From contig JANQEN010000099.1 in assembly GCA_028278335.1 (NCBI GenBank), positions 1 through 43,222 of the forward strand: DNA of 43,222 nt. Direction: 5' to 3'. A program made the translations under genes and the position numbers. Below, in pieces: positions 7,041 to 42,746 of the stretch (its first letter is position 1; every line of letters begins with the position of its first letter). Below the pieces are notes generated by a model that did no database searches, was not told where the DNA came from, and saw nothing but the letters and a program-made list of their open reading frames with translations. This stretch comes from Chitinivibrionales bacterium. Its GTDB lineage: Bacteria; Fibrobacterota; Chitinivibrionia; Chitinivibrionales; JANQEN01.

Positions 7041-8459
7041 TTATCGTAACAAGGGAATTGTTATTCCAGCTTGACCGGTACCTGACATAACCTGAATTAC
7101 AGTCTGCACCTGTGCGTGATTACTGATGTTCCAGGGTAATATGTTATCTCCAAAACTGAGGTTAGTTCGTTTGCTCCTTAGCAATTGACCATTGAGGGTG
7201 TAGAGTTTAAAAGTATAATTCCCTTTTGCTGGCGCGGTAATAAAAAAGAGGTTTTCTTTAAGCTTCCAAATAGTTAGTCTCTTATAGGCGGTCGTGCTGT
7301 TTGACAAAATATTTACACCCTGGTGACAATAGAGTGCCCCCATATCGACTCGTGTGCTATCAGGATCTTTAGGTGAATTGGGGTCACCGCTATCAATACA
7401 GGGTGAGTTTTTGGATAGATGAAAATCATTTTTTCCAGGATTTACAAAGAGAGGATCACTTTTAATATTACCTGGACCGGAAATATCGGTTGAACTGCAT
7501 GAATAGGAAAGAAAGCACACGCCACCTCCGTCAACATCTATATCAGATGGAACAGTACCTGCGGTGTTGTTAAATACAATATTATTTGCTCCATACAATT
7601 CTGCGGATGTTCCCATGTTTAGATATACACCAAGACCGCCGCCAGATTCCTCCTCTGTTTTGTTGTTTACTATAGTGTTATTGTTGAAACCCTTTGCTAC
7701 AACATTAAAAACTAAGGCACCGGCAGATGACCTTTTAGAGGTATTATTATAGATGATGTTATGGTGAACATTTACATTCAATGCTACTAGTTGAGTATTG
7801 TCTGTGGTTATGCGCACCGCGCCTCCGCAGCCCCATCAGGTTGTATTTGAACTATTTCCATACATAACACAATTCTCAACAGTAGCATTATCACAATCGC
7901 AGAGATTTATAGCACAGCCACCTTTATCACCTATGTTATTCTTAAAAATGCAATTATTGACAATGATACTACAGTTTGTTGCGTTGATTCCACCTCCGTA
8001 CATGGCATCGCAATTTGAAATAGTAGAATTTTGCACAGTAATTGAGGCACCATTAACATTGATACCCCCGCCAGCCTTTCCCCAGGGTCTTTCACATTTG
8101 TCAATAATACAATGATCAAAGATACTCTGATCGGAACTTCCCTCTAAAAATTGTATTCCTCCCCAATTGGAACTACCCTTGGACACGAAGTGTATCTCTT
8201 CTCCCAATGTGCCAACTGCCTTCACCTCACCTGATATGGCCCATGCATAATTTCCGTTATGTTCGAACTTTGTACCCGGTTCAATGGCAAGCGTTTTTCC
8301 GTTTTCAACAGTAATATTGCCAACAACTTCATACGTACCAGGACCAAGGGTGCCTGATTGCGGGCCGCTGATAGGTTGCTGACTATACAACACTGTACAC
8401 ATTAGAAAGAAAAGGATTACCAAAAATTTTATTTCATTTAAACTTGTTTTACAATTCAT
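7041..8459 (-). CDS. secreted right-handed beta-helix protein, candidate selenoprotein (U208, UWGC)
   Basis: Read through one in-frame TGA (7836-7838) the gene encodes 472 residues. A signal peptide (FLVILFFLMCTVLYSQ) is followed by parallel beta-helix coils (GGINVNGASITVQNSTISNC, GGGINATNC and so on) that continue without a break on the other side of the TGA (GGAVRITTDN, NIIYNNTS, GGGLGVYLN). It ends with PLFVNP/CIDSGDP, typical of such helices, and a degenerate C-terminal sorting tail. The junction reads NTT-U-WGC-GGAV, so Sec and Cys form a UxxC pair. The hairpin at 7812-7822 follows. Both halves have the same coil pattern, which argues against two genes. What it binds is unknown; beta-helix proteins of this kind usually adhere to or cleave polysaccharide. 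It is cysteine-rich for a beta-helix protein. Confidence 0.8.
7812..7822 (-). promoter_or_regulatory. SECIS-like hairpin of the beta-helix gene
   Basis: On the coding strand GCGC-GGU-GCGC: a perfect 4-bp GC stem with a GGU apical loop at nt 18-20 after the TGA. It lies inside the coding frame, as bacterial SECIS elements do. A G in the first two loop positions and this distance are the known requirements for SelB recognition. Confidence 0.65.
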
Positions 8460-8790
8460 TGCTTGTCTTCCTTTATGGTCCCCTTTTTTATCCGTCAGTG
8501 AATCTGCTAAGTATGAAAAGATTTTTTATTAATAATGTTTCATATTGGTATTGGTTAACTATAAATAAATTACTAAAAGCAGGAGAAATAACACACTTTT
8601 TCTTTTTGGATTATAAACTTCGTGCATAGTTTTTCATCATTCTTAATGGACTTTTAATAGTTTTAATGAGAGACAAATAATGGTTTGTTATCAAAAATGT
8701 GTAAATGTGTATCAATAGTGTATTCTTGAGAACATCTGCTAAAGAGTGGGGAAAAATTATACACTTTTATTGTGCTACTAATCGATTATT
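8460..8790. other. AT-rich gap, no gene seen
   Basis: 330 bp between the TRAP permease stop and the start of the beta-helix gene, both on the minus strand. It must hold the promoter of the beta-helix gene and the end of the TRAP transcript, but I see no clear terminator hairpin, repeat or conserved reading frame. A GGGGACC/AAAGGAAG purine stretch just upstream of 8459 is the likely ribosome site. Confidence 0.5.
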
Positions 8791-10743
8791 CTATCGCCTT
8801 CCAAGCTTCTGAAAAACAACCACCAAACCCAATAGAGCTAGTCCGCAACTATAGCCAACGCCTTTGCTCATACTATCACCTATAATTCTTGGATTAAAAA
8901 GTAGCATTGAAGCACCAAGTAGCAATGGCACTTCGTACCAACGATTGGGTTTAAGGAATCTTCCCTGCATCACTGCAGTAAAGAGGCAGGCGCCAATTGC
9001 GGCGGTGATAAAAATCCAGATACCTTGGAGCCAACTGGTTATTCCAAAGAGAAGTAGCTCGGTGTTAAAAATGAACATAAAGGGAATTATGGTAGTTCGC
9101 AAATCGTAAAGAAATCCCTGGATACCGGTTGGTATGGGCTCTGACTCGGCAATCGCTGCAGCAGCATAGGAGGCGAGGCCCACCGGTGGTGTGTCATCAG
9201 CAAGAATGCCAAAGTAGAAGCAGAAAAGGTGCGCTGCAATCAAGGGGATGACAAGATTATAAAGGGAACCAATTTCAACAAGAATTGGTGCGGTTAAAGA
9301 GGCCATCACAATATAGGTTGCTGTGGTGGGAAGGCCCATGCCAAGGAGAAGGCTTGCGAGTGCAGTTATTATAAGCAGAAGCATGATGTTTCCTCCAGAT
9401 AATATTTCTACTATCTGAATGATCATGCTCCCAATACCCATATTAATGATGCCCACAATAATCCCGGCTGCTGCTGTGGCAAGTGCCACTGGTACCATAT
9501 TTTTTGATCCAGTAATACAACCCTGCAATAACACTTTCCCAAAGGTTTTTAGGAGTGTGGCTATTGAAGAATCTGTATCTCTGATGCGCCACTGTTCATA
9601 GAGGACAACAGGTATGAGTATGAGGATTGCAGAAAACACGGCCTTTTCAGCGGAGCGGCGAAATACCAGCAGCTCAATCATCAAGAACAGAGGAGGAATA
9701 AGGAAATGCCAGCCCTCTTTAATGGTATCCACAAATTTTGGAATATCCCGTACTGCCATTCCCTTAAGGTCAAGCTTGCATGCCTCAAGGTGGGTGATAT
9801 AAAAAAGGGCGCAGTACGATACTAAGGCAGGGATAGCAGCAGCTTTAACCACTTCAATATAGGGGACATTCACATACTCGGCTATGATAAAAGCGGCGGC
9901 TCCCATAATAGGTGGCATAAGTTGTCCGTCCGTACTGGCGGCAACCTCAATAGCAGCGGCCTTTTTAGCAGGATACCCAACCTTTTTCATAAGAGGAATG
10001 GTAAAGGTACCGGTGGTGACAATATTGGCAATACTCGAGCCTGAAATACTTCCCATCATACCGCTTGCCACAACCGCAGCTTTTGCAGGGCCGCCGCGAA
10101 ATCGTCCAAGCAGTGAAAGGGCCAGGGTGATAAAAAAGCGGCCAGCACCTCCAGCCTCTAAGATTGCTCCCATAAGTACAAAGAGATACACAATCCGTGC
10201 GGAGACACCTAAGGGAATACCATAGATACCCTCGGAGGAGAGCGAGGTCTGGGTAAGAAATTTGTTGAGTGAAACTCCACGAAAGGCAAATAGAGAAGGC
10301 AAATGGGGCCCTAAAAAGGCATAGAGAATAAACAGTAAGGCAATAATGGGTAGCGCTGGTCCCACAGCTCTACGCGATGCTTCAAGTACAAAAAGGACTA
10401 CCAGGATACCAAAAAAAATATCACGACTATTGGGAATGCCGGAGCGCGTGGCAATGCCCTGCCAGTCAAGCATTAGATAAAGTGATGATACAGCAGCGAC
10501 AATGGCAAGAAAATATCCAAATCCTGGGATAGAAATTCTCTGAAAAAAGGCTGAGATTTTTTTGGGAAGTCCCTTTATAAGTGGTAGGGAAATAAACACC
10601 AGGGCCATAGCAAAGGCCAGGTGGATGGTACGTCTCTTCACACTGTCAAGTATAACCAAGGAGGGAAGAGAAAGTTGAAACAGGGCCCAGCATACTGAAA
10701 TAACAGAGATGATTTTATATTGAACGGTGGTTGATTGTATCAT
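8791..10743 (-). CDS. TRAP transporter fused permease (4TM-12TM, DctQM type)
   Basis: 650 residues, almost entirely hydrophobic, the usual length of fused small-plus-large TRAP permeases. The first ~120 residues correspond to the DctQ-like part. The rest is the DctM-like transport domain with GMMGSISGSSIANIVTTGTFTIPLMKK, AASTDGQLMPPIMGAAAFI and GMGLPTTATYIV, all hallmarks of the TAXI-associated TRAP permease family. It imports a substrate, usually a carboxylate or amino acid, with the sodium gradient. The gene is 18 bp downstream of its binding-protein gene, in one operon. The substrate is not shown by the sequence. Confidence 0.95.
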   Translation of the reverse strand: MIQSTTVQYKIISVISVCWALFQLSLPSLVILDSVKRRTIHLAFAMALVFISLPLIKGLPKKISAFFQRISIPGFGYFLAIVAAVSSLYLMLDWQGIATRSGIPNSRDIFFGILVVLFVLEASRRAVGPALPIIALLFILYAFLGPHLPSLFAFRGVSLNKFLTQTSLSSEGIYGIPLGVSARIVYLFVLMGAILEAGGAGRFFITLALSLLGRFRGGPAKAAVVASGMMGSISGSSIANIVTTGTFTIPLMKKVGYPAKKAAAIEVAASTDGQLMPPIMGAAAFIIAEYVNVPYIEVVKAAAIPALVSYCALFYITHLEACKLDLKGMAVRDIPKFVDTIKEGWHFLIPPLFLMIELLVFRRSAEKAVFSAILILIPVVLYEQWRIRDTDSSIATLLKTFGKVLLQGCITGSKNMVPVALATAAAGIIVGIINMGIGSMIIQIVEILSGGNIMLLLIITALASLLLGMGLPTTATYIVMASLTAPILVEIGSLYNLVIPLIAAHLFCFYFGILADDTPPVGLASYAAAAIAESEPIPTGIQGFLYDLRTTIIPFMFIFNTELLLFGITSWLQGIWIFITAAIGACLFTAVMQGRFLKPNRWYEVPLLLGASMLLFNPRIIGDSMSKGVGYSCGLALLGLVVVFQKLGRR

Positions 10744-10761
10744 TGAAACCGCTTTAGTTGG

Positions 10762-11778
10762 CTACTCCTGAAGTAGGCTTGGGTTAATAAGTTCTATGAG
10801 GCCAGCTTCCTTATAATAGCGGATGGCACCTGTGTGCAAGGGTGCACTCATACCTTCGAGCATATTCCTTTTTGTTAACACTGTGTAGGCTGGGTGAATA
10901 GTCTTAAACTCATCTAAGTTATTAAACACCTCTTTGGTGATTGCATAGACAATATCCGTGGAGGTGTTTTTAGATGTTAGAAAGGTTCCCTTTACACCAA
11001 AGGATTGAATGTCTTTCTTGTTTGATGCGCCAGGGTAGAGCTTCATGGGTATGGTGGCATGGGTGTAGTAGGGATATTGATTTACCAGGCTGTCAACACC
11101 AGGACCAACAAGGGGTATCAGGGTAACCGGTACTCTTCCTGAGGTTGCCTCTTTTATATTGCCACTGGGGTGGCCAACCGTGTAAAAAAATGCATCGATG
11201 CGTTCATCCTGAAGAAGGCCCGGCGCTTCTACTGCTTTAACGTATTCTGCGGCAATATCCTTTTCTGTCAATCCAAAGGCTGCCAGAGCATCCCGTGAAT
11301 TCTGGAGTGGGCCTGATCCGGGATTGCCAAGATTGACCCGTTTACCACGAAGGAGCTGTGGTGAGGTTATGCCACTTTTCTTGGATGCGACTAGGGTCAC
11401 TGATTCAGGGTGGATAGTAAATATGGACCGGAGGTCTTTACAGGGGCCCTGTTTTTCCCACTCTGCAACACCGGTATATGCTTGGTATTGTCGATCGGAT
11501 TGCACAACGCCAAAGTCAAGATCACCGGCAAGTACGGCATTGACATTGAATACTGAGCCAGCCGTGGATTCAACCGTCGCTTTTATGCCATAGGTTGCAA
11601 TCTGCTTATTGATCATCCGACTAATAGCACCACCGGTTGGATAGTAAACGCCTGTAACTGCTCCGGTTCCGATCGTCACAAAGACCGTTTTTCTTTTTGC
11701 CTTACCAGAGCCACAGTGAATAAAAACCAGAGAAAGTGCAAAAATATAGATATACTGTATAAGTGATTTGCCATGCAT
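10762..11778 (-). CDS. TAXI-family TRAP transporter solute-binding lipoprotein
   Basis: 338 residues. The N-terminal signal sequence ends in the lipobox LVFIHC, so the protein is probably anchored to the membrane. The mature part begins with VTIGTGAVTGVYYPTGGAISRMIN, the signature of TAXI receptors, followed by TAGSVFNVNAVLAGDLDFGVVQSD and LRGKRVNLGNPGSGPLQN. It captures the substrate in the periplasm and hands it to the fused permease encoded 18 bp downstream. TAXI receptors of known function bind glutamate or related acids, but the ligand here is unknown. Confidence 0.95.
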   Translation of the reverse strand: MHGKSLIQYIYIFALSLVFIHCGSGKAKRKTVFVTIGTGAVTGVYYPTGGAISRMINKQIATYGIKATVESTAGSVFNVNAVLAGDLDFGVVQSDRQYQAYTGVAEWEKQGPCKDLRSIFTIHPESVTLVASKKSGITSPQLLRGKRVNLGNPGSGPLQNSRDALAAFGLTEKDIAAEYVKAVEAPGLLQDERIDAFFYTVGHPSGNIKEATSGRVPVTLIPLVGPGVDSLVNQYPYYTHATIPMKLYPGASNKKDIQSFGVKGTFLTSKNTSTDIVYAITKEVFNNLDEFKTIHPAYTVLTKRNMLEGMSAPLHTGAIRYYKEAGLIELINPSLLQE

Positions 11779-19062: not shown

Positions 19063-20046
19063 CTATTTTATAAATTTCACCTTTCTAACTATAGTCCTGT
19101 CAGCAGTCGTAACCCTGACCAAATGTATGCCAGTGGGAACTGAATTTTCTAATGAATGCCACGTATTGCAATTATTTATGCGACTCTTTTCGAGAATTTT
19201 ACCCCTAATATCGACAATCAGTAAGGTGTAGTCCCTTGCAAAGGGAACATGGATCATAAAAGATCCATTTCTAAAACCGAAAGAAACTTTTTGTATGATT
19301 TTTTGATTGTTAGTACATATCGGTACACCTTGATTCAGGCCTACAGTGCACCCTTGCAGGATTTCTTTGTCATCAGTCTGGATAAAGGCTATCAGTTTGC
19401 ATCCCTCTTTCTTCCATCCTGATTTTACCGCAAAGCTTCTGTTTTTAGTCACACTCTCTCCAACAGCCAAGGTTATGTGTTCACCTTTTGCATCGGGAAG
19501 CATATCACGTACTGTCCATGTTTTCCGCGGTTTGCCACTTAGGTCGTTTACAATCAAATATTCTGTCAGACCTGCATGAAGCATGGCGCTAATTTCAGAA
19601 TTAGAGGTATTCGTGATAGTTATTTTGACAGCGCCCTGGTTTTGTGGGCAGCTAGATTCCATAACAATGGTTGCAGGGCTGGCAACAGCCCGTCTGCTTT
19701 CATAGGTGCTCCTGTGTTGATCGTAGGAGGGGTAGTTTGTTGAACTTTTTTTTCCATCAATATAAAAACGGGGCTTGCGACTATCTGCGTAATATTCACG
19801 TGTTCGTGCTCTATGTTCCATCGTAGAGAGGCTGTTCCCAATTTGGTACGTCACAAGGCACAGATTGTCTCCCTCTTCATGCTTTAACTTGTCCAACGCC
19901 GCCGCCGGCGGATCACAGGAACCTCAAGTAATGCTGTCAAAGTGTTCAAAAACAACAACTCGCTTCGATTTGGCTTGATTATCCGCAAAAAGAGAGATCA
20001 ATAACAGAATGATCATTACGTGGGAAGTGTTAGTTTTTTGTATCAT
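19063..20046 (-). CDS. Omp28-like thioredoxin-fold surface protein, candidate selenoprotein (U41, UGSC)
   Basis: Read through the TGA at 19924-19926 the gene encodes 327 residues. Signal peptide MIILLLISLFADNQAKS, then KRVVVFEHFDSIT-U-GSC-DPPAAALDKL: the first strand and helix of a thioredoxin fold with the catalytic CxxC replaced by UxxC. The next residues (LCLVTYQIG, KPRFYIDGKK) fit the second strand and the cis-loop region. A second domain (SSCPQNQGAVKITITNTS, GWKKEGCKLIAFIQ) is shared with 25074-26039 and resembles the C-terminal half of Omp28-related proteins. A T9SS tail closes it (TGIHLVRVT...KVKFIK). It starts 17 bp after the CxU gene and forms an operon with it. A redox role outside the cell is inferred. 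Confidence 0.87.
19899..19911 (-). promoter_or_regulatory. SECIS-like hairpin of the UGSC gene
   Basis: On the coding strand CCGCC-GGC-GGCGG, a perfect 5-bp stem with a GGC loop at nt 18-20 after the TGA. The run of GC-rich codons here stands out sharply against the AT-rich coding sequence around it, which suggests selection on RNA structure. Confidence 0.65.
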
Positions 20047-20063: not shown

Positions 20064-20957
20064 CTATTGATTGGTTTTTACAATTATTTTTTTTGCAACA
20101 GGTTGGGTATTTATCATAAACTGCGAATAATAAATTCCCTGAGAAACAGGTGTGCCAGAAATACTGGTACAATCCCATTGGAGCGTGTGATAACCCTTTA
20201 CCATATTAGTATTCGACAAGATTGACTTTACACAGCTCCCTTTTGTATCAAACACATCTATTGAAACTTTAGATTGTTCATTCAGTCTCAGGTGAATTGT
20301 TATTAAACCTGGGGATGACTTACAGTACACCTTCACCTGATTAATTGGATGCATCTGAATTTGTTTTATGAACCCAGTATTATCTTTATAGTGAATTCTT
20401 ATCGGTTGCATTCCCTGAAGACTTCCTGCACCAGTTAAAGTACGTGCTTCTAAAGTCCTGCCCCTATCCGAGTCAAAGTAGGACATTATGTCGCCGTCAT
20501 TATTTCCCTGATAAATGATTTCAAAAATTAGCCCACTGGATCCGTTGTATTTAAATGGTGGCTCAAGTTCAAAACCATACCATTCATCTTTTGAGAAATT
20601 CGCTCGGAATGTTGGATTTGCATGTAACACTTTTGGAGTGTTTCCCGAGTAATTGTCATCCGGGGTAGTGGATAGTATTGATTTTTCTGAATGGCATAAC
20701 TTAACTTCCAGGTTATAAAATTCATCACCTGAACATGCTCTAGCCGCCAACATTTGAAATTTTGTTATTTCTGTACCGGCTGTTAATTCCTTTATCTCGC
20801 TGTCTAATACCAAAACCTGGTAGCGCATAGTTTTAGCTCAATGGCAAAAGGGTGAGGACATACTCATCCCTGTTTTTTCGCCAACCTCAATAAACTGAGC
20901 AAGGCAATGCCCCACTAGTAACAAAATAAGGTTGAGCGTAGCTACATAACTGTTCAT
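20064..20957 (-). CDS. secreted T9SS-tail protein, candidate selenoprotein (U40, CHU)
   Basis: 297 residues when read through the TGA at 20838-20840. Signal peptide LNLILLLVGHCLAQ, then an N-terminal segment SSPFC-H-U-AKTMRYQVLVLDSEI. Many T9SS proteins have a PF...R-Q-L...SE-I module at this point; here it contains a Cys-x-Sec pair. The central domain (NYSGNTPKVL, WYGFELEPPFKYNGSSGLIFEI) is shared with the gene at 21531-22379, which also has its TGA at codon 40. The end is a T9SS type A tail (SVDVFDTKGS-like and QGIYYSQF). It heads an operon with the UGSC gene. Its upstream promoter/leader is duplicated before the paralogue. Function unknown. Confidence 0.85.
20808..20822 (-). promoter_or_regulatory. 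SECIS-like hairpin of the CHU gene
   Basis: On the coding strand UACCA-GGUUU-UGGUA, a perfect 5-bp stem whose loop starts GGU at nt 21 after the TGA. The E. coli fdhF SECIS has its loop GGU at nt 19-21, so the placement is nearly the same. Confidence 0.75.
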
Positions 20958-21530: not shown

Positions 21531-22379
21531 TCAACGTAAAAGACAGAATTTTCCCTTATACTGAATTCCATCACATGCAATTATGAGGGTATACAAACCA
21601 GAAGGGAGTTGTTTTATACCACAGGTAAAATGGTTGTTACTGATTACTTGGTCTCTCAGTTTAACTGCTTTTCCGGTAATCGTATACAAAGAAACATGCA
21701 TTGATTTATTATTAAAAAATTGTGGTATAGGTGTAGAAACATGGGTGGTAGTCAATCGTATGGATAAATTATTGGTTATATGCTTCCTATTCGAAATGAT
21801 TGGTGTGTTGGATTTATAATAGAGTCGCATTGCCATATCATTCCCTAAAAAATCACCAGTTGGGGAAGAGAGGTTGTTTTTAAAGACACACCGCTTGGTT
21901 CCATTTCCCGCATGGATAGAGATGCTACCCTTAGGATTATCGTAGCTTAGCTCAATAATTAAATTGCTTGTGCCATTGTATTTAAAGGGTGGATTAAATT
22001 TCCAACCAAACCACTCCTTTGCTACTGTTGAGACGGTCATTGTTCCTATCGAGTAAACCAATTGCGGCGTATTGCCAGAATAATTTTCGATAAAGGTGGT
22101 GCTGATACTTCCCTTGTCCGTATGTCCCACATGGATCTTAAAGGAGGACCATGATTGGTTGGTGGTGTTTTCAGCAGCCAGAAAATTGAAAGATGTTATC
22201 GTTACTGCGCCGGGCATTTCATTTGCGTTCACAAAACCTTGGAATCGACCTGCATTGCCTCAGGTGCAGAGCGGTTTGTTGACGCTTGAGAACCAGTTGC
22301 TCCCAATATCAACATACTCTTGGCCTATAATCAGAGTCGTAAAAAATAACATGCTTAGAGCTGATTTGAATAAGTGCAT
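21531..22379 (-). CDS. secreted T9SS-tail protein, candidate selenoprotein (U40, CTU)
   Basis: 282 residues when read through the TGA at 22260-22262. The start at 22379 has AAGGAG well placed upstream and opens a signal peptide ending ...FFTTLIIGQ. The N-terminal module reads NKPLC-T-U-GNAGRFQGFV, then ITSFNFLAA, matching the CHU paralogue (PFC-H-U...RYQVLV...ITKFQMLAA). The central domain has NYSGNTPQLV, WFGWKFNPPFKYNGTSNLIIEL. A T9SS tail follows (VSLYTITGKAV, SGLYTLIIA). The TGA is at the same codon as in the paralogue, so the Sec position is older than the duplication. Function unknown; a carbohydrate-binding sandwich with a redox pair at the N-terminus is one reading. Confidence 0.85.
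22228..22244 (-). promoter_or_regulatory. SECIS-like hairpin of the CTU gene, with bulged U
   Basis: On the coding strand UUCCAA pairs with UUGUGAA as six base pairs interrupted by one bulged U; the loop is GGUU at nt 22-25 after the TGA. A bulged U plus a GGU loop are the two features SelB contacts in the known E. coli element, though there the bulge is on the 5' side. Confidence 0.78.
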
Positions 22380-25073: not shown

Positions 25074-26039
25074 TTACCTTGTTACCATAATGGGCTGGGA
25101 ATGGATATGCTTATTTGCAATCACTTTGATAATGTACAATCCCGGAGCTACCTCAACTGGAATGGTATTCCATTTTTGACTACCTTTTATCCGAGCCGTT
25201 TTGATACACTGGCCCTGCAGATTGATCAAAGACACCTTGTGATCGCCCTTATATGGTGATTGTATATATAGTGATCCTCTTAAGGACTTAACAGTGATAT
25301 TCATTGTTTGTGTTGATTGAGGTTGGATAAGGTGTGTTCCCTCATTGACACCAATCTCTTTGCCCTGGATAATTTCCTTATCATTCTTTTGTATGAAGGC
25401 TATGAGTCGGCAGTTTTCTTTTCTCCAATTGGATTTAATAGTAAAGGTCCGCTGCTTAGTTGTGCTCTCACCTGCAGCAAGCGTTATAGATTCTCCTGTG
25501 GCATTGGGAAGCATGTCTCGATTGCAATCTTCTGTGGAGGGTTGGTTGCTCCATGAGTGGGGAATTTTATTTTCGATAACCACCACATGCAAAGTACCAT
25601 TCACCGAACTCTGGGATGTGTTGGTGAGAGTAATTTGTAAAGCACCCTCATTTTGAGGACAGGATGAGCCCATAGTGATGGCAAGTGGTGATGGCTTAGC
25701 TAAACGACGTTCAACATTTGCTTTAATTTTGTCATATTTGTAGGGTTCATTCAATATACCATCACCGTAGCAGGTTGGCCAGTAACCCACGCTATAATAG
25801 TCTTTCCGGTTTTGAGTCTCCTGAGTTTGAAAGTCGTCATAGCAGTAATTGATGACAATTGCAACGTTATCTTTATACTCTGATTTTATTCTCTTTAGCG
25901 TACCCGCCAGTTTATCGCACATACTTCATCTGCCATGGGAGGAACTGTATGTGTCAAGAACGACAACCTTGGTTTGTGCTCCCACAGAAAAAATCAATGC
26001 CATTATTACTAAGAAGGCCTGCCACTGTTTGTTTTTCAT
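25074..26039 (-). CDS. Omp28-like thioredoxin-fold surface protein, candidate selenoprotein (U38, USMC)
   Basis: 321 residues when read through the TGA at 25926-25928. The start at 26039 begins a signal peptide (FLVIMALIFSVGAQ) and is followed by TKVVVLDTYSSSHGR-U-SMC-DKLAGTL, the first strand, redox motif and helix of a thioredoxin fold with UxxC; DNVAIVINYCYDDF is the second strand. The second domain (GSSCPQNEGALQITLTNTS, NWRKENCRLIAFIQKNDKEI) is paralogous to that of 19063-20046. The tail PGLYIIKVIANK is a T9SS sorting domain. It is the third gene of the 28614-25074 unit, 45 bp after the propeller gene. Likely a surface thiol/selenol oxidoreductase; substrate unknown. Confidence 0.87.
25896..25909 (-). 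promoter_or_regulatory. SECIS-like hairpin of the USMC gene
   Basis: On the coding strand UGGCG-GGUA-CGCUA, a 5-bp stem (one G-U pair) with a GGUA loop at nt 22-25 after the TGA. Confidence 0.75.
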
Positions 26040-26084
26040 TTTATATCCTCCCATACTTTAGATACAAAAAATGTTTGTAGTTTG

Positions 26085-27380
26085 TTAACGTTTAAAGAGA
26101 ATTTTATTGGTATAGGTGATAGAACCTTGCGTAATTTTATACAGATAGGTTCCATTGGATACTTGATTGTTATGTTTATCAAGCCCATTCCATATGACTG
26201 AATAGTTTCCTGGTGTGTGATAATTACTGGTTAACGTTTTTACTCGTTGACCTGCGATGTTAAATATAGCAAGTGATACATAACCGGCTTTTGGTATGGT
26301 GTACTGAATGGATGTCTTTGATGAGAAGGGATTGGGAAAACATTTGTGAGATGTTAAATGATAAAATGTTTTCAAAGGAGGGGTCTGAATGGGAACAACA
26401 CCACCCTCCTTGTATACTGCCACTCCCCCATAGGTACCGATCCACATATTATCCTGTTTGTCAAATTCAATAACCCTAACCCCATCGTTAGGAAGCGGTG
26501 AATTGGATGTGTTTAAAACAGTCCATTCATCAGAGGGGTTAATTTTAATCATACCACCGGGCTGGACAGCACCAATCCATTTATTTCCAAACCGGTCCTT
26601 TTTTATTTCAAGGATATAATTGTTTGCTAACTTTGAATTGTCCGTATTGTAAACTGTCCAGTTTGTTCCATCTAAATGTCCCACCCCACCTTCTTTGGTG
26701 CCAAGCCAAACACTTTGAGGATTATCAACCATTAATCCCAACACTCTATTGTCAGGAATGTCTGAATTTGATTCATTATACACAGTCCAGGACGAGCCCT
26801 TAAACTTTGCGAGACCACCATAAAAGGTTCCTATCCAGGTGTATCCCTCGGTATCAAAGGCAAACTCCCAAACATAGTTGTCGGGCAATCCTGAGTTGGT
26901 TGTATTGTAGGTAGTCCAGTTTGAACCGTCAAAGGTTACCACTCCTCCTGCATGAGTACCGATCCAAATTTTTCCTGAGACATCGGTTGTAAGTGCCACG
27001 ATTTCATTATCAGGCAAGTCGGAATTCTCTGTTGTGTAAAGAGTGCCATTGGTGCCATTTTTCTTCACTAGGCCTTTGTTCGTGCCTATCCAAACACCAC
27101 CATCGTTGTCAAGAGTCAATGACCGGATAGAGTTATCCGGTAGTATAGAGGTATTTGAATTAAAGAGAGTCCAAGAGGCACCATCGAATTCAGCCAGAAA
27201 TTCTAAGGTGCCAACCCATACATACCCATTATCACCAACAACCATTGTAGAAACAGCATCATTAAATAGAGGGGTGTTTGACCGGTTATAAATAACCCAT
27301 TCTGGGTTAGCGTAATTGGTTAAACAATATAAAAGAACAATTAAGAAAACTAATTCGATTTTTGATTTTTTGTTTCCCAT
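26085..27380 (-). CDS. secreted two-component-regulator-propeller-repeat protein with T9SS tail
   Basis: 431 residues. A signal peptide (FLIVLLYCLTNYA) is followed by about seven repeats of ~44 residues with the pattern LPDN-x4-L-x8-G-x-VWIGT-x2-GG-x4-FDG-x2-WT-x-YN (for example DVSGKIWIGTHAGGVVTFDG), the Reg_prop motif that folds as a seven-bladed beta-propeller. In hybrid two-component sensors such propellers read sugars; here there is no kinase domain. A linker precedes a T9SS type A tail (YTIPKAGYVSLAIFNIAGQ, NGTYLYKITQG). It lies between two candidate selenoprotein genes in one operon, with gaps of 28 and 45 bp. Confidence 0.88.
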   Translation of the reverse strand: MGNKKSKIELVFLIVLLYCLTNYANPEWVIYNRSNTPLFNDAVSTMVVGDNGYVWVGTLEFLAEFDGASWTLFNSNTSILPDNSIRSLTLDNDGGVWIGTNKGLVKKNGTNGTLYTTENSDLPDNEIVALTTDVSGKIWIGTHAGGVVTFDGSNWTTYNTTNSGLPDNYVWEFAFDTEGYTWIGTFYGGLAKFKGSSWTVYNESNSDIPDNRVLGLMVDNPQSVWLGTKEGGVGHLDGTNWTVYNTDNSKLANNYILEIKKDRFGNKWIGAVQPGGMIKINPSDEWTVLNTSNSPLPNDGVRVIEFDKQDNMWIGTYGGVAVYKEGGVVPIQTPPLKTFYHLTSHKCFPNPFSSKTSIQYTIPKAGYVSLAIFNIAGQRVKTLTSNYHTPGNYSVIWNGLDKHNNQVSNGTYLYKITQGSITYTNKILFKR

Positions 27381-27408
27381 GAATCACTTCCTTCTACTGA
27401 GTATGTTA

Positions 27409-28614
27409 TTATCTATTTAAAATTATTTTGTGTATTGAGTTTCTTAAAGACGATCCATACAATTGTATAAAGTAAACACCCGAAGCAAAGTTACTGATGT
27501 CCACATGTATAGATGTCACTTGATGAATATGTCTGTTGTAAAGGAGTAAGCCCTTAGAGGAGAAAATATTCAAATGTTTTTCACCCACTCCATTGATGTT
27601 GATCGTAATCGAGAGTCTATTGTCCTTTACTGTTATCAGTGATGAACTAATTTCCCTATGAACTTTATTTGATTTAATTGGTGTTGGATTTTGACCAAGA
27701 TAAATCATGATATGCGGATTAACACTGGGGCGCTCACTCCAGATCATATCAAAGAGACCATCTTCGTTCCAGTCTGTAAAGCAGAAGCGAGGATCCGATT
27801 CAGGATCAATAATAGTACCATTAGAAAGTTTAAGTGTGTCTTGGCTTGTAAATATTGGTGCTGCGTTGGTTCCGACATTTTTCATAAAGTACATTTTACT
27901 GTTTGCCATGCCCTCACAGGTAATAAGGTCTTTTTTACCATCCCTATCAAGGTCCTCAACCTGTATGTAACATCGATTATAGGCAATGGCATTTCCATTC
28001 AATTCTAATTTTGAAAAAGTAGTGAAACGATAGTTTGTAGTCGATCCAGAATTTAAATAGAGTCTAATCCCATCAGTGCCTATTCCACTGCCAACAAGCA
28101 GATCAAGTTTTCCATCTTCATTCCAATCGACTACAACTACAGAGGAATTACTATGAACTTTTATCTCTCCATTTGCATCATGAATTCTTTTACCAGATTT
28201 TAATGTGCCGTCGCTGTTTCTTTCATAAAAGTTGACAAATCCTGCTCGCTCACCTAATAGGAGGTCTTTCAATCCATCTCCATTTAAATCCTCAACCTGA
28301 GGGCTACCAGAGCCTAAACATCATGTCGGCTTAAAGGTAATTCGTTGCCCACCAGCCTTTAAATACGAACGTGATGTAAACCGAGGGGATTCATTGGTGC
28401 CGGTATTAATCAATAAGTTTACCCAGCCACTATCGTACTGTCCGGAGATTAAGTCTTTTTTTCCATCACCATTCCAGTCATGTACGCAGGGTGTTGAGTA
28501 TTTGATCTCCCCTGGAGTTCCATTGATGGTAATCACGCCACTTTCTTTAAAAGCGGGTAAAAATGCCATGCTGGATGAGCAAAATAGAATGAGACTCCAG
28601 AAAAAACAGTTCAT
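27409..28614 (-). CDS. secreted FG-GAP/VCBS-repeat protein, candidate selenoprotein (U98, UC)
   Basis: 401 residues when read through the TGA at 28321-28323. A signal peptide is followed by five calcium-binding DxNxDGxxD repeats: HDWNGDGKKDLISG, EDLNGDGLKDLLLGE, VDWNEDGKLDLLVGSG, EDLDRDGKKDLITCEG and DWNEDGLFDMIW. The TGA falls between repeats 1 and 2 in the sequence FKPT-U-CLGSGSPQVEDL. Related FG-GAP proteins have a conserved CLG at this place, so the cysteine is native and the preceding residue becomes Sec, giving a vicinal selenenylsulfide pair. The repeats read in one frame through the TGA. It ends with a T9SS tail (LNIFSSKGLLLYN, SGVYFIQL). GCAAGGGA lies upstream of the start. It is the first gene of a three-gene unit. 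Confidence 0.83.
28290..28302 (-). promoter_or_regulatory. SECIS-like hairpin of the UC gene
   Basis: On the coding strand CCUCA-GGU-UGAGG, a perfect 5-bp stem with a GGU loop at nt 24-26 after the TGA. Confidence 0.75.
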
Positions 28615-31267: not shown

Positions 31268-33129
31268 TGAGAAGAAAAATAGCTGTTTCACTAATCACTA
31301 TCATATTAGGCCACTTGTCTCTATTTGCCTTTGAAATATCTTTTTCAATTAATACTGAGAATGAAAGAAAACCCATCTCACCCTATATTTATGGGACAAA
31401 TCAGCTTCTTACTGAAAGTGAGAACTGGTCTCTTCGACGCTCTGGAGGTAATCGCTGGACCGGTTATAATTGGGAAAATAACGCTTCCAATGCAGGCTCT
31501 GATTGGAATCATAGCTCTGACAGTTATCTTGGTGGAGGGAATATTCCCGGTAAGGCAATCACTGATCGCCATGAAGTAAGTATTGCTGCCAACCGTGCAT
31601 CCTTAGTTACTATACCCATGGCCGGATATGTATCTCGTGATAAGGACGGTACTGTTACACAAGCCCAAACAGCCCCATCAAATCGATGGAATAAAATTGC
31701 TTTTGTCAAACCAGCTCCTTTTGTAGCCTATCCAAATCTAACAGATAATATTGTATACATGGATGAATTCGTGAATTTTTTTGTTACAAAATATGGGAAT
31801 GCTTCAACTGCTAAGGGTATCTCAGGCTACAGTTTAGATAATGAGCCTGCTCTCTGGGTGGAAACCCACTCACGACTTCACCCTGAAAAGGTGCGATGTG
31901 TTGAATTGACCGATCGATCCCGTGATCTTTCTGTAGCAATTAAGAAGGTTGATGAATCTGCTGATATATATGGTCCGGTACTCTACGGATTCAATGCTAT
32001 GACCAGTCTTCAGGATGCTCCTGATTGGGACAGTATACAGGAGGTAAATAGTTATGAATGGTTTGTCGACTATTATCTTGATATGATGAAGAAGCACTCT
32101 GATGTTGCAGGAAAGCGACTTCTTGATGTCTTTGATATCCATTGGTATTCCGAGGCAAAAGGGGACAACCGAATCACACAATCAAACGCGACATCACAAA
32201 AGGACAGACAAGCCCGTGTGCAGGCACCACGCACCTTATGGCACGAAGGATATATAGAAGACTCCTGGATTGGTCAATGGGGACAGGATTTTTTACCCCT
32301 AATTCCGGCGATTAAAAAATCTATAGATACCTATTATCCAGGAACAAAAATAGCCTTTACTGAATGGAATTATGGTGGCGAAGATGATATTTCCGGTGGT
32401 ATTGCCTTTGCCGATGCTTTGGGTATCTATGGAAAATATGGGGTCTACACTGCTGCCTACTGGCAGCTGTGGAGCTCGACCAATTATTCCAGCGCTGCTT
32501 TTAAGCTTTTTCGCAATTATAATGGCCAACAGGGAAGGTATGGTTCGATGTCAGTGCAATCAAATACTGAAGATTGGGAGAAAAGCTCTATCTATGCAGC
32601 CCAACAGAGTGGAACGAATACTAACTTGCATGTGATCCTCATTAACAAGAGCTTTACCGAATCTATGGATGCTACAGTTTCTGTCACCTCTCCAATATCT
32701 TATTCATCGGGATCTGTGTGGGGGTTTGATGCACAGCAATCGAATATTACCCAGTTTCAAAAGATTGAGAACATAGAAAATAACCAATTTACCTATTCTG
32801 TTCCGGCACTATCAGTTTACCATATGATACTATCACCACAGGGATCCACCATATTCAATTCTCCAGGTGCCCTATTTCCTAACAATAGGTTTACCATTGC
32901 AGAATCTTCCTTTGGGAGCCTTCGTTTCTCAGTTTTCCTGCCAAAGGCTCAACAGGTAAAAGTTGATCTATTTGATGTTCAGGGACGATTGGTTGAAAAT
33001 CTTTACAAAGGCTATATGTCCGCCGGTTTACACAGCAGGACCATGACAACCCAGAGCGCATCAGGGATTTATATAGCTGCAGTAGCAATTGATAGTGAAA
33101 TGTTCCATCAAAGGATTTCTAAACAATAG
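31267..33129 (+). CDS. GH44 endoglucanase/xyloglucanase with T9SS tail
   Basis: 620 residues. After a signal peptide, ISPYIYGTNQ and RRSGGNRWTGYNWENNASNAGSDW are the GH44 opening signature. The acid/base glutamate is E193 in SLDNEPALW and the nucleophile E366 in FTEWNYGG, both intact. HWYSEAKGDNRI contributes to the active-site rim. A beta-sandwich companion domain and a T9SS type A tail (VKVDLFDVQGRLVENLYKGYMSAGLHSRTM, SGIYIAAV) follow. The enzyme cleaves beta-1,4-glucans, including xyloglucan and carboxymethyl-cellulose, and is sent to the cell surface. The GH9 gene starts 30 bp downstream, in one operon. Confidence 0.95.
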   Translation: MRRKIAVSLITIILGHLSLFAFEISFSINTENERKPISPYIYGTNQLLTESENWSLRRSGGNRWTGYNWENNASNAGSDWNHSSDSYLGGGNIPGKAITDRHEVSIAANRASLVTIPMAGYVSRDKDGTVTQAQTAPSNRWNKIAFVKPAPFVAYPNLTDNIVYMDEFVNFFVTKYGNASTAKGISGYSLDNEPALWVETHSRLHPEKVRCVELTDRSRDLSVAIKKVDESADIYGPVLYGFNAMTSLQDAPDWDSIQEVNSYEWFVDYYLDMMKKHSDVAGKRLLDVFDIHWYSEAKGDNRITQSNATSQKDRQARVQAPRTLWHEGYIEDSWIGQWGQDFLPLIPAIKKSIDTYYPGTKIAFTEWNYGGEDDISGGIAFADALGIYGKYGVYTAAYWQLWSSTNYSSAAFKLFRNYNGQQGRYGSMSVQSNTEDWEKSSIYAAQQSGTNTNLHVILINKSFTESMDATVSVTSPISYSSGSVWGFDAQQSNITQFQKIENIENNQFTYSVPALSVYHMILSPQGSTIFNSPGALFPNNRFTIAESSFGSLRFSVFLPKAQQVKVDLFDVQGRLVENLYKGYMSAGLHSRTMTTQSASGIYIAAVAIDSEMFHQRISKQ

Positions 33130-33159
33130 TTTCGATTATCTAATAGTAAGGAATAAAAA

Positions 33160-35733
33160 ATGAACGCATATCGCTCCATAATCTTTTTTAATATACTGTA
33201 TCTGGTACTTTTAACAGATCTTCCCTATGCGGCAAAGCTTGCTAAGGTGGGAGTAATTGATCAAAATGTTATTATGGTTCTTCTTAAAGATGGTGAGGTC
33301 ACCCATCGCGATGATGGTATTGGGCCTAATGCCTTTACCAATAACTATCATGAGGAAGATATCGACACGATAAAAGAGTGCCGGCCCTTCTGCAACACCT
33401 CAGCAGCACAGCAGGCCTCTAACTGGACCCTCACCGCAACCAATGATCCTGACATTGGCTCCTCTGGTGTAAATCCAAAAAATTGCTATCGCAAAACTAA
33501 GCTCAATGGTCATGCAGAGCGAGCCTGGCAGGGAAGCGACTTTGCCTATGAGTCAACCTATGAACATACTCTGTTTTTATGCTTTTCTCAAACGCTGAAA
33601 CAGGGTAATACCTATACACTAAACATTGCCGGATCAGTAAATGCTGACAAAGAGAGCCACACCTTTACCTATGATATATACAAAAGTGTATCAGAGGCAG
33701 TCCATGTAAACCTAGTTGGATATCATCCTGATCCAACTATGAAGTCGGCAGACCTTTTCCAATGGGTGGGGGATGGTGGCGCTCGGGATTATTCGTCCTT
33801 TGAGGGTAACAAAGTTTTTCTCTATAACACAACAACAAACCAACCGACCGAAGTGGGAGTTGTATCCTTTTGGAAAAAGAGTGGACTTGATGTGGGGTGG
33901 TATAATCTAACCCGCTCCTCAGTCTGGAACGCAGACTTTTCGCAATATACAACAACAGGCACCTATCGTCTTGCTATAGAGGGCGTGGGGTGTAGTCAGG
34001 ATTTTATCATTTCTCAAGAGGCCTATTTTTATCCCTATATGGTTTCAACCCAGGGATTTTTCTATATGCGTATTGGGCAAGATAGTACTGGTGGGATTTC
34101 TCCAGTACCTCGACGCCCCCTTTATATACCGGGAGAGTCTCCATCAAATACGAAAGTGTATATCACAACGATGAATCCCTTTCATCCTGAGTGGAAGACA
34201 TTTTCCAGCGGTGATGCCTGGGATAAACCTGACGATTGGGCACGATTTAGGAAACCCGGCAATCCGATGAATAATAAGGCGATGGGTGGCCATAGTGATG
34301 CCCGTGATTGGGACCGTCATTTGGGGCATATATCAATTATTTATGATCTGCTTCTTCCCTTCTACCTAACCAATGGCGTACTTAAGGAGGATAATCTTGA
34401 CATAGCGGAGAGTGGTAATGGCATCCCCGATTTACTTGATGAAGCGCGAAATGAAGTTGATTTTTGGCTCAGTGCTCGCGATGGGGTAGGTTATTCTTTT
34501 GGCTTGACCAATCCAAATAAAAACAACGAGTTCTTCCAGGCCGGAACCTCTACATTTGCTGCTTGGGCAAATGCAGCAAATGCAGCTATGCTTGCTGACT
34601 GTTATCGAATTGCTGGATTAAAGGACCTCATGGAGGAGTATCGTGATAGCGCCCTTGCTGCCTATTCCTATGCCAGCACACAGGCAGACCAAATGTTAGA
34701 CCGATCACATGAAATTGGAGATGCCGGCATTCGTGGTCGGGATTTAAAAATGATGGCCGCAGCGTCGCTTTACAATATTACTGGACATCGGCCCTTCGAA
34801 GATAGCGTAAAATTATTGAGTATTGTTACAAACAGCAATTCTGCTTTGGTCGATGAGCGAACAACTACCCAAACATGGGCTACTGCCCTCTATCTGATGA
34901 CAAAGCAACCGATCCATTATCCACAGCTTCATGCACATATGCGATCCTCGGTTATTGCCCAAGCTAAGACAAAGGAGGCAAACCTTTTTGCTACCCGCCC
35001 CTCTAGGCGGAGCACACCCAATAATTTTGGCTACTTTCGCTCCTGTCAAAATGTACACCATACCATCATAGCCCATGCTGTTGCGCAAAATAAAAGCGAT
35101 AAGACATTCTTCAGAAAGGCGCTCGTGCTTGAGGCTGACTACAGCCTTGGAAGAAACACCTTGAATATGATCCAGATGACAACCGCCAGCACACCTTTAG
35201 AAAACAAACGAAGCGTTCACTACGCCTATACCTCTGGGCATGACGATGGAACACCGGGTATGCATCCCGGGCATACACCGTACTTTAACTTGGATAACTG
35301 GATGTCACACTTAGCCATGGGGAGCCCCTCAAGACTTTACCAGAAGTGCTATCCCCAAAATTTTAAAACAACCTGGCCAATTGACGAAGGGTATTTTGAC
35401 ACTAAATATGTATGGGCTCACAGTGAATTTACTCCTCGACAGACCATGCGGGGAAAAATGGCTCTCTATGCTTACCTCCATGCAATCCGAAATGAACAGG
35501 GTTCGTCCATCTTTGCAGATCCTGGTCCCTATCACCCTAATCAGCGATTCTCCTTTGACAAAAAATCGGTTGTCAGAATTACCCTGTTTGATATGAAGGG
35601 ACGTATGATTCAGTCATCTTGTGACTATACAACTGCATCAATTTTAAGTAGACATTTATCCTCTGGTGTCTATTTCATTGAATACAGATTGCGTAATGGA
35701 ACAATATTAAAATCGTCTTATGTTAAGCTGTAA
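33160..35733 (+). CDS. GH9 cellulase with N-terminal Ig-like domain and T9SS tail
   Basis: 857 residues. A signal peptide and a ~100-residue beta-rich leader are followed by an Ig-like CelD-N module (VHVNLVGYHPDPTMKSADLF) and the (alpha/alpha)6 catalytic domain. The catalytic aspartates are D380 and D383 in HSDARDWDRH, the family DAGD motif with Arg in place of Gly. The acid glutamate is probably E756 in AHSEFTPRQT. GNGIPDLLDEAR is the usual start of the barrel. A T9SS tail (ITLFDMKGRMIQS, SGVYFIEYRL) closes it. It acts on cellulose or mixed-linkage glucans at the cell surface, together with the GH44 enzyme. Confidence 0.93.
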   Translation: MNAYRSIIFFNILYLVLLTDLPYAAKLAKVGVIDQNVIMVLLKDGEVTHRDDGIGPNAFTNNYHEEDIDTIKECRPFCNTSAAQQASNWTLTATNDPDIGSSGVNPKNCYRKTKLNGHAERAWQGSDFAYESTYEHTLFLCFSQTLKQGNTYTLNIAGSVNADKESHTFTYDIYKSVSEAVHVNLVGYHPDPTMKSADLFQWVGDGGARDYSSFEGNKVFLYNTTTNQPTEVGVVSFWKKSGLDVGWYNLTRSSVWNADFSQYTTTGTYRLAIEGVGCSQDFIISQEAYFYPYMVSTQGFFYMRIGQDSTGGISPVPRRPLYIPGESPSNTKVYITTMNPFHPEWKTFSSGDAWDKPDDWARFRKPGNPMNNKAMGGHSDARDWDRHLGHISIIYDLLLPFYLTNGVLKEDNLDIAESGNGIPDLLDEARNEVDFWLSARDGVGYSFGLTNPNKNNEFFQAGTSTFAAWANAANAAMLADCYRIAGLKDLMEEYRDSALAAYSYASTQADQMLDRSHEIGDAGIRGRDLKMMAAASLYNITGHRPFEDSVKLLSIVTNSNSALVDERTTTQTWATALYLMTKQPIHYPQLHAHMRSSVIAQAKTKEANLFATRPSRRSTPNNFGYFRSCQNVHHTIIAHAVAQNKSDKTFFRKALVLEADYSLGRNTLNMIQMTTASTPLENKRSVHYAYTSGHDDGTPGMHPGHTPYFNLDNWMSHLAMGSPSRLYQKCYPQNFKTTWPIDEGYFDTKYVWAHSEFTPRQTMRGKMALYAYLHAIRNEQGSSIFADPGPYHPNQRFSFDKKSVVRITLFDMKGRMIQSSCDYTTASILSRHLSSGVYFIEYRLRNGTILKSSYVKL

Positions 35734-41165: not shown

Positions 41166-41690
41166 TTAAAGAAACTAAATAGTGGATCAAACCACTTCTA
41201 TACCTTACGGTAACCTCTAAAAATTCATTTCCTATTACGGCTGGCTGCAAAACGATTTAGGTTTCGTCACATTCAATCGCCGAATCGCAGCGAGTTCGCC
41301 TCTTTCATGTGCCTCTCCTAAAGATTTTTCGCTCAGCCTCAGGACAAAACTGAATTATTTGAGGTCACCTTAATTATGACATGAGTATAAAGTCATTCTG
41401 TGAATTAATAATTCATAGTATGTCATTGTTTTAAGTGGCATTCTAAGCTGTGATGATAATCCTTAGTGTCCATATTTTTGCGATGTGTACATTAACATTA
41501 TACTTTTTTCAAGAATGGTGTACGGAAAAATTTACAAATAGTATAAATATGCCGATTTATGAAAATAGTTGTATATATTTAGAGATAGGTTGGTTAAAAT
41601 CAGCTTAAAAATTACGATTTAGCCAATATCGACTTGTTTATTTGTAAGTTAACAGCGCGATTTTTATCAAATTAAAATAGGGAGGAATAC
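41166..41690. other. intergenic region upstream of the thioredoxin-fold candidate selenoprotein
   Basis: 525 bp. AGTGG-N6-CCACT at 41181-41196 is a weak terminator for the AraC gene. GC-richer DNA at about 41255-41345 stands out from its surroundings but encodes nothing I recognise. The right part is very AT-rich, with GGGAGG just before ATG 41691. Confidence 0.45.
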
Positions 41691-42746
41691 ATGAGCAAAA
41701 TTGTTCAAAGCAGCTTGGTTGCGTTGCTCATGATCTGTGGAGCCTTTTCACAGATCGAGAATGTCCAATTCAAGGATCTCAAGGGTAAGTCGTGGGATTT
41801 GTACAATATCCTTGACGAGGGAAAATTTGTTTATATCTATTTCACCTGGAATGGATGACCGAGTTGTTCACCGGCGTCGCCGAACAGAATGTGGGATAAA
41901 TATAGCTGTGATAAGTGCAACAATTATCAATTATTATCTATAATGGCAAACCACTCAGATTCAAAAAGTGCCTTTGAGAGTTGGATCCGAAATAAGGGTG
42001 GAGCACGATGTGTTTCAGTCTGTAAAGATGAGGGGGGCAAGTCTCTTACCGAAGCCTGTGGTAATGGTGGTTGGGGAGGGACATCCTTTTTTATCAAACC
42101 GGACAAGTCATTTAAGAAGTACTCCTCCAGTGATATCTCTAGCAATGGTATTCGTGAGCATAATTGTAATAATGGTGATATTTTAGCACCAACAGTGCAA
42201 ATCAACTCTCCTTCAGTGGGAGAGGTGTTAAAAAGTAATGTGGACTACAACATCACCTGGAAAGCCACCGACAATATTGGGGTTGTGTCAAGAAAAATAC
42301 TATTTAGTAAAGATAATGGCTCAAAATGGGAAGCCATTGATAGTGCTTCTGGTAATACCGGTACTTTTACGTGGACAGTGCCAGAGATAGATTCCAAGGA
42401 GTGCAAAATCAAGATTTATGCATATGACAAAGCAGGCAACAGAGGACAAAAGGAATCGGGTGTCTTTAGTATCGAACCAGTCTCATCAATCGAGCTTTCA
42501 GATATGAAGCAATTTGATCTCATTTCGGTTCACAGGACAATCAACGGCTATTTTATCTATGTTCCTCACAGCGGAGTGAGTCGTTTGGCAATTTTTGATG
42601 TGAAGGGCAAAAAAGTGTTTGATCAAGTAACCTCTATGGATAAGCAGTATTATCCCTTGCCAAAAGATCAGTTATCGGGTATGTACTTTCTCAGAATAAC
42701 AAGTGAAAAGAAAACTATAAATAAAAAAGTATGGTTTATTAAATAA
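41691..42746 (+). CDS. secreted thioredoxin-fold protein with Ig-like domain and T9SS tail, candidate selenoprotein (U56, UPSC)
   Basis: 351 residues when read through the TGA at 41856-41858. The start has GGGAGG and begins a signal peptide (SLVALLMICGAFSQ). KDLKGKSWDLYNILDEGKFVYIYFTWNG-U-PSC is split here only by the Sec: it is the TlpA/AhpC-type strand, with the redox CxxC as UxxC (UPSC, close to the W-C-P-x-C of TlpA). A CxxC (CDKC) follows, then SWIRNKGGARCVSVCKDEGG and a cis-loop TSFFIKP. An Ig-like domain (PTVQINSPSVGEVLKSN, FTWTVPEIDSKECKIKIYAYDKAGN) and a T9SS type A tail (LAIFDVKGKKVFDQ, SGMYFLRITSEKK) complete it. A surface peroxiredoxin- or thioredoxin-like activity is likely. Confidence 0.9.
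41865..41886 (+). promoter_or_regulatory. SECIS-like hairpin of the UPSC gene
   Basis: CGGC-GUC-GCCG (41872-41882), with the loop G at nt 18 after the TGA. A lower helix, UGUUC with GAACA, can extend the stem if ACC bulges. It is the only one of the seven with a loop that starts with a single G. Confidence 0.6.

Follow-up and report, generated by a model that had tools for sequence, protein, structure and literature searches.

The largest selenoproteomes named in a 2026 review (PMC13188914) are those of Olavius algarvensis Delta 1, with at least 57 genes, and of a Methylomirabilota metagenome-assembled genome, with 63 predicted genes. Table 1 of that review includes redoxin and deiodinase-like selenoproteins, lists NF045500, with the motif UxxC (U, selenocysteine), under a hypothetical GOS protein, and gives two exported precedents, an outer-membrane barrel protein and a TonB-dependent receptor; a survey from 2008 (PMC2398784) contains secreted serine-protease selenoproteins and GOS_C, a group of 74 sequences with UxxC and a thioredoxin (Trx)-like fold. 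Here we describe seven genes, each with one in-frame TGA, on a contig of a Chitinivibrionales bacterium (C190, JANQEN010000099.1; the window is this entire contig, 43,222 bases). They are likely selenoprotein genes, in which TGA would be decoded as selenocysteine (Sec) by the organism's own SelA, SelB, and tRNA-Sec, and their products are predicted to be redox-active surface proteins exported by the type IX secretion system (T9SS); we infer Sec insertion, secretion, and function from sequence. Like the two large selenoproteomes, the host genome (6.33 Mb, 90.5% complete) holds dozens of candidate genes, but it differs from them in that exported-type families prevail and in that two unrelated Sec machineries appear to occur together.

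Same-frame joins across one stop were listed for the whole window, with at least 20 codons upstream, 60 downstream, and 200 in total, which gave seven joins across TGA, two across TAA, and two across TAG. The seven TGA joins are exactly the genes singled out by the first-pass annotation, made from the sequence alone, and the cysteine that it placed within three residues of each TGA is indeed read in the translations (UWGC, UGSC, CHU, CTU, USMC, UC, and UPSC). Six of the genes lie on the minus strand, namely, those for a beta-helix protein (7041..8459; TGA at 7836-7838, UWGC; PF13229 at 31.6 bits against a cut-off of 25.9), an Omp28-like protein with a Trx-like N terminus (19063..20046; TGA at 19924-19926, UGSC; PF11551 at 43.3 bits against a cut-off of 34.9), two CxU-family proteins (20064..20957, with CHU and its TGA at 20838-20840, and 21531..22379, with CTU and its TGA at 22260-22262, the terminal stop of the latter gene also being TGA), an Omp28-like/HBP35-like protein (25074..26054; TGA at 25926-25928, USMC; PF11551 at 76.0 bits), and an FG-GAP beta-propeller protein (27409..28614; TGA at 28321-28323, UC; PF13517 at 80.6 bits). 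The seventh, on the plus strand, encodes a redoxin-like domain followed by a Big_7 domain (30.0 bits) and a T9SS-type tail (41691..42746; TGA at 41856-41858, UPSC). Domain scans gave no confirmation of the label "carbohydrate-binding-like" that had been attached to the CHU and CTU proteins. Nothing comparable is seen with TAA or TAG in the window: one of the other four joins fuses two distinct genes (8791-11778), and in the remaining three the upstream piece is a mere 22 to 29 codons long.

What we take to be the decisive case for reading these codons as Sec comes from beyond the window and is the DNRLRE/CBM96 family, one scanned member of which (L142:12787-13755) matches NF033679 at 112 bits (cut-off, 34) and PF24517 at 75.4 bits (cut-off, 26); the domain is that of known DNRLRE/CBM96 proteins, but here it carries a TGA in a two-residue pair motif. 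Searching 167 genomes of the phylum with a profile of three of the genome's own proteins yielded at least 39 matches in nine genomes, 27 of which (in six genomes) contain one or two TGAs and none of which contains TAA or TAG. TGA-bearing genes account for 13 of 14 matches in the host genome, 6 of 6 in G001, 4 of 5 in G004, 2 of 2 in G039, the single match in G031, and 1 of 2 in G027, while the matches in G166 (six), G011 (two), and G158 (one) are all without TGA. In the 22 of the 27 TGA-bearing genes that were aligned, with TGA coded as cysteine, the two columns of the pair read C/U in 11, U/C in 7, U/U in 3, and Y/U in 1; the motif UxxU occurs in own_C18, own_C228, and G001_C106. Either position of the pair can thus hold cysteine or TGA, a pattern expected for Sec and not for any stop codon. 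A structure model of one DNRLRE protein (A4) has a mean predicted local distance difference test score (pLDDT) of 58.

That the TGAs are instead pseudogene stops or assembly errors might be suggested by the draft state of the assembly, which is in 301 contigs, but the exchange of TGA and cysteine at two DNRLRE columns already contradicts this explanation; the 27 TGA-bearing genes of that family in six genomes and the lack of like TAA or TAG cases in the window also speak against it. Further evidence comes from stop read-throughs in part of the genome: in 548 kb of its own sequence, on contigs chosen in part for paralogues, strict read-throughs with coding sequence on both sides have a cysteine close by in 9 of 10 cases for TGA versus 1 of 12 for TAA or TAG (Fisher p = 1.9e-4), and under looser rules, in 1.23 Mb, the counts are 20 of 46 and 13 of 95. 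Six paralogue pairs retain the TGA, some at a synonymous divergence (dS) of >1.6, and nonsynonymous divergence (dN) is well under dS on both sides of the TGA wherever dS could be computed (in one example pair, dN/dS values of 0.041/0.383 upstream and 0.065/0.295 downstream), indicating purifying selection both before and after the codon. We consider pseudogenes or errors an extremely improbable explanation.

The sequence sample behind these counts is non-random: the window and the machinery and paralogue contigs were picked, others were taken by number (C1, C3-C5, C7-C10, C11-C52, and C53-C94, the long ones for their first 20 kb only and those already sampled being skipped), and base-by-base reading covered about one-fifth of the genome. 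Contigs C53-C94 gave no convincing candidate, with seven TGA joins, one of which has a cysteine nearby. TGA terminates 81 of 572 open stretches of at least 250 codons in the 1.23 Mb, which rules it out as a genome-wide sense codon. The scan for single TGAs is blind to genes with two, which surfaced in the family searches. Searches of the host genome scored part of the first-look candidates (13 of 34 Omp28-like, 14 of 40 DNRLRE, 10 of 156 kelch, and 14 of 80 in a further search); because such scoring of a part applies to some genomes, family counts are minimum values, and failure to find a gene does not prove that it is absent.

The genes selA, selB, selC, and selD, which the first-pass annotation had proposed to seek, are all present, two of each. 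Two tRNA-Sec genes exceed the Rfam cut-off, both with a UCA anticodon and each adjoining selB and selA, and the resulting selA-selB-selC loci lie on C244 (L017:9448-13051) and C6 (L018:8636-12124). In trees, the C6 system groups with relatives from the same order (12 for selB and 11 for selA), and the C244 system forms a very long branch outside the order relatives for both genes, in a placement that the tool flags as unsure. No SelA more than 40% identical to that of C244 was found in the other genomes of the phylum (167 genomes in all, 14 of which, the host included, have a match at an E value of 1e-60); its best database relatives are 75 to 77% identical, one at 65% is labelled Chitinivibrionales, and the sole match in a contig search is a Cloacimonas locus, at 38%. 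The names of these database relatives, with Fibrobacterota also among them, suggest Fibrobacterota as the phylum. Judged by these placements, the genome holds two Sec machineries of differing, unrelated lineage. A tRNA-Sec closely resembling that of C244 occurs in G004 (L277, G004:C6:2312-2405), near a frame labelled recombinase-like by eye. Among 41 genomes searched, 16 have a tRNA-Sec over the cut-off, including all six with TGA-bearing DNRLRE genes. The C244 locus also adjoins an Omp28-like TGA gene (L017:7951-9060).

Two UCA-anticodon tRNAs and two SelBs in a single genome also invite the explanation that one selC-like tRNA, of the selC* or allo-tRNA type, inserts cysteine or another amino acid at TGA, which would give full-length, selenium-free proteins; two delta-proteobacterial groups are reported to have a selC* tRNA-Cys together with a second selB (PMC7609411), and the host's own C6-type tRNA (L002:1501-1594) starts with a pyrimidine and lacks an encoded CCA. 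Against this, a SelA, which forms Sec from serine, is encoded at each of the two tRNA loci, and no second cysteinyl-tRNA synthetase occurs among the frames scanned beside the loci, although no search was aimed at that enzyme. Both selD genes, moreover, carry their one in-frame TGA inside UxxK, listed in Table 1 of PMC13188914 as SelD's Sec motif, and the host shares its C6-type tRNA with relatives that have a single selA-selB locus. Among the C6-type tRNAs the 5'-terminal base varies, and what comes after the conserved 3' G is an encoded CCA in some relatives (G006, G008, and G019) and other bases in the host and the rest, so that the acceptor may have 7 base pairs with G73. Decoding of TGA as something other than Sec is, in our estimate, very unlikely.

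For the selenoprotein reading, the RNA downstream of the TGA provides further evidence. When the 47 bases past the TGA were folded and compared with the mean of sampled in-frame places in the same gene, 28 of 29 of the host's own candidates were more stably folded past the TGA (p = 3.7e-9; the exception is one SelD), and the same was seen for 17 of 19 additional genes of the DNRLRE family (p = 9.5e-6). In the window, all seven genes show it, with z scores of -0.33 to -2.31. When hairpins were sought from +14 to +32, with G required in the first two loop positions, the best loop of 22 of 29 own candidates began between +20 and +26, and 20 of 29 hairpins fell under the 10th percentile of their gene. 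The DNRLRE hairpin, which encloses an arginine codon located between +15 and +30 (in most cases at +18 or +21), covaries, with 86 of 105 inner cells paired versus 61.6 +/- 4.0 after the 3' arms had been shuffled among the sequences (0 of 5,000 shuffles); this test covers 21 of 22 rows, own_C20 having no arginine codon in range, its shuffle ignores relatedness, and taking the best-pairing arginine codon where several are possible favours pairing. In the window, hairpins were placed in the beta-helix gene (GCGC[GGT]GCGC, about 7812-7822, with the strongest folding z score of the seven, -2.31), the 19063..20046 Omp28-like gene (about 19899-19911), and the CHU gene (TACCAG[GTT]TTGGTA, about 20808-20822), as well as in the 25074..26054 gene (TGGCG[GGTA]CGCTA, about 25896-25909), the FG-GAP gene (AGCCCTCA[GGT]TGAGGATT, about 28287-28305), and the redoxin-like gene (CGGC[GTC]GCCG, about 41872-41882). 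As a group, the candidates appear to carry a hairpin of the Sec insertion sequence (SECIS) type after the UGA. No Rfam family reaches its gathering score in the window, and two clear groups of hairpins that would match the two SelBs were not apparent by eye.

Two of the window genes belong to the Omp28-like family. Searching with the 25074 protein retrieved at least eight places in the host genome, itself included, at 32 to 100% identity, each with exactly one TGA, and a ninth paralogue is the one adjoining selC on C244; in the other 166 genomes of the phylum the same query gave one tail match only. In the nine-member alignment, the TGA column is among 10 invariant columns and the column of the partner cysteine varies, UxxC being present in eight of the nine paralogues and replaced by UGNV in the C244 member. 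Three outside database proteins read TCPPC, TCGPC, and TCPPC at the matching place (in printed alignment for two of them), and in three database copies the part before the TGA is absent, as judged from lengths and coverage and, for one, from the sequence itself. Contig C74 (L106, 3,455 bases) is colinear with window positions 24680-28131 at 89.6% identity. Whether it stems from duplication of the block or from another strain in the bin, it reads the Omp28-like TGA independently, and as the codon is retained there, it is no sequencing error in that gene. The best structural match of the modelled 25074 protein is HBP35 of Porphyromonas gingivalis (5y1a), which likewise has a Trx-like domain and then beta domains and which differs in having a cysteine at the position that corresponds to the TGA in the structure-search alignment. 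HBP35 is a T9SS cargo. The 25074 protein scores 39.1 bits against NF045500 (cut-off, 200) over residues 73-237, a span that excludes the TGA, and is, by this comparison, probably related to that Omp28-related selenoprotein family without being a member of it. NF045500 shares the Omp28 domain, and GOS_C is described with the same Trx-like fold and UxxC (in the 2008 survey, PMC2398784), whereas here nine paralogues occur in a single genome, two of them in the window.

Register of the TGA is also seen in the smaller families. All three TGA-bearing FG-GAP copies have an invariant UC, and a fourth match ends at a contig edge past that column. The neighbouring CHU and CTU proteins are 29% identical with C-x-TGA in register; among nine outside relatives, two have tryptophan at the TGA column and seven start downstream of it, including a 53% identical metagenomic homologue whose database copy starts immediately past the TGA and lacks the preceding part. 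In the redoxin-like protein, the TGA aligns with the first cysteine of the ResA motif CPHC (E value, 0.027), a weak match that stands level with an unrelated Cas10 row. Like the redoxin/TlpA-type selenoproteins of Table 1 in PMC13188914, this protein has UPSC at its thiol site, but it adds a Big_7 domain and a T9SS tail. At least four kelch-like TGA genes are present, three single-TGA genes in tandem that align and one with UU; adjacent double TGAs of this kind occur in L114 (C233:7644-8882) and L134:2765-3640 (C20), one kelch-like and the other DNRLRE. A two-member family lies on C161 and C20, and lone TGA genes elsewhere in the genome have malectin/CBM6 or deiodinase-like domains. On C7, a frame of 1,249 residues with malectin, PKD, and CBM6 domains (L122:5767-9516) contains one TGA (CVT-U-PGP), and its hairpin has a z score of -3.0.

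Altogether 40 candidates were counted in the genome: 13 DNRLRE, 9 Omp28-like (the C74 copy included), 4 kelch-like, 3 FG-GAP, 2 CHU/CTU, 2 of the C161/C20 family, 2 SelD, and 5 singles (beta-helix, redoxin, deiodinase-like, malectin/CBM6, and one unnamed). Of these, 35 have one or more TGA-bearing relatives of their family in the genome, and register was seen for 31, a count that leaves out four DNRLRE genes (on C156, C7, C148, and C183). The first-pass annotation had called such surface Sec families undescribed, which appears to be right for the beta-helix, FG-GAP, and CHU/CTU proteins and wrong for the Omp28-related (NF045500, GOS_C) and redoxin types; exported selenoproteins have precedents in the barrel protein, TonB-dependent receptor, and secreted serine proteases cited above. 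The 119 families of Table 1 in PMC13188914 name no DNRLRE/CBM96, FG-GAP, kelch, beta-helix, or CHU/CTU protein, and the ten proteins scanned against NCBIfam, a collection that has models of many hypothetical families from that table, match no selenoprotein family besides NF045500. In the open-access literature, we found no paper pairing selenoproteins with DNRLRE, and a search for selenoproteins together with type IX secretion returned just a rabbit-feeding study.

Export is predicted from a SprA homologue, the only T9SS component searched for, together with T9SS-type tails. Signal peptides had been attributed to all seven window products; judged by eye, hydrophobic N termini are present. T9SS-like tails had been attributed to all seven; this is borne out for 25074 (29.3 bits) and 41691 (31.9 bits), which exceed the TIGR04183 cut-off of 23 bits, whereas the CHU (20064) and FG-GAP (27409) proteins fall under it and the CTU and beta-helix proteins have no match, the 19063 protein being outside that scan. 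PF18962 gave sub-threshold matches in six of the seven, all except the beta-helix protein, whose tail matches that of 25074. Sec could also be real in proteins that are housekeeping thiol oxidoreductases, periplasmic or anchored in the outer membrane and without a redox role at the surface, and the sub-threshold or missing tails of several window proteins, as well as the ordinary thiol-disulfide folds of the Omp28/HBP35-like and redoxin proteins, are in keeping with this. We judge it unlikely, given the SprA homologue, the tails over the cut-off not only in the window's Omp28-like and redoxin proteins but also in a kelch, a DNRLRE (23.2 bits against 23), and a C161 protein, and the presence of Sec in beta-propellers and CBM96 domains as well. 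We know of no thiol enzyme among beta-propeller or CBM96 domains, nor of binding or propeller folds that act as redox enzymes.

Several observations weigh against taking these genes to encode redox-active selenoproteins. Coding TGA as cysteine favours alignments that place TGA with cysteine in the DNRLRE family, in which 12 of the 39 matches, the host's own on C156 among them, are stop-free; among seven of these that were read at the two pair columns, one (from G166) has a single cysteine, four show gaps or the residues S, F, G, Y, or T, and two are cut. The expectation that homologues carry cysteine or TGA at the same columns holds for close homologues (Omp28-like, FG-GAP, CHU/CTU, and DNRLRE) and fails for such distant DNRLRE relatives; no TGA-aligned homologue of the beta-helix gene was found, and those of the redoxin are weak. 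The tryptophan in two CHU/CTU homologues fits a gene call of TGA under code 4 but could be encoded by TGG. Other matches in the kelch search include one of the genome's own without a stop (C157), a partial one with TAG (C196), and one in G031 with TAAs, and the adjacent cysteine is absent from some candidates (UGNV beside selC; PSGGUGDP). No SelA or SelB over the threshold was found in G001 or G004, both of which hold TGA-bearing DNRLRE genes; the selA of G001 is truncated by a contig end, and the G004 genome is 83% complete. A G-loop hairpin had been claimed after each TGA, and while the lower folding energy holds for all seven window genes, only four fall below the 5th percentile of their gene in the G-loop search, individually modest results. 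Finally, the putative redox function is read from motifs.

Between the Omp28-like and FG-GAP genes lies 26085..27380 (minus strand), which encodes a two-component-regulator-propeller protein (PF07494) with no TGA and a weak T9SS-type tail (PF18962 at 24.6 bits, under the cut-off of 27). At 31267-35733, also near candidate selenoprotein genes, the gene for a GH44 enzyme precedes that for a cellulase-N-domain protein whose T9SS tail is weak, which suggests that the organism is a polysaccharide degrader. The window is not a foreign contig: its tetranucleotide profile lies closer to the mean of 49 stretches of the genome, each 15 kb or longer, than does the profile of any of those stretches, in a comparison in which the window, being longer than these stretches, has the less noisy profile.

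If TGA is read as Sec in these genes, a Sec beside a cysteine (UxxC, CxU, and UC, with CxxU elsewhere in the genome) would form a reversible selenenylsulfide, and a Sec beside a second Sec (UxxU and UU) would form a reversible diselenide. The Omp28/HBP35-like and redoxin proteins may use Sec as the attacking residue of a Trx-like CxxC site to reduce extracellular disulfides or peroxides; for Sec in beta-propeller, beta-helix, and CBM96 proteins, the proposed role is that of a redox switch or of a covalent link within a binding module. We propose, tentatively and as something possible rather than probable, that Sec is a general building element of the cell surface in this organism, with Sec-Cys and Sec-Sec pairs acting as extracellular switches or cross-links in T9SS-exported beta-propellers, beta-helices, kelch proteins, and carbohydrate-binding domains, supplied by two Sec machineries. 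Were this true, it would be the first mainly extracellular selenoproteome and possibly the largest in any bacterium.

What is new here is a candidate large, T9SS-type exported bacterial selenoproteome, in which Sec would be present in dozens of exported-type genes, including those for binding and propeller folds. Standard gene calling truncates such genes at the TGA, as in the database copies of the Omp28-like and CHU proteins. With a pair motif that swaps sides (UxxC, CxxU, UxxU, and CU), Sec-Cys chemistry outside the cell could be tested directly, and a genome with two Sec machineries would offer a natural test of the specificity between SelB and SECIS.

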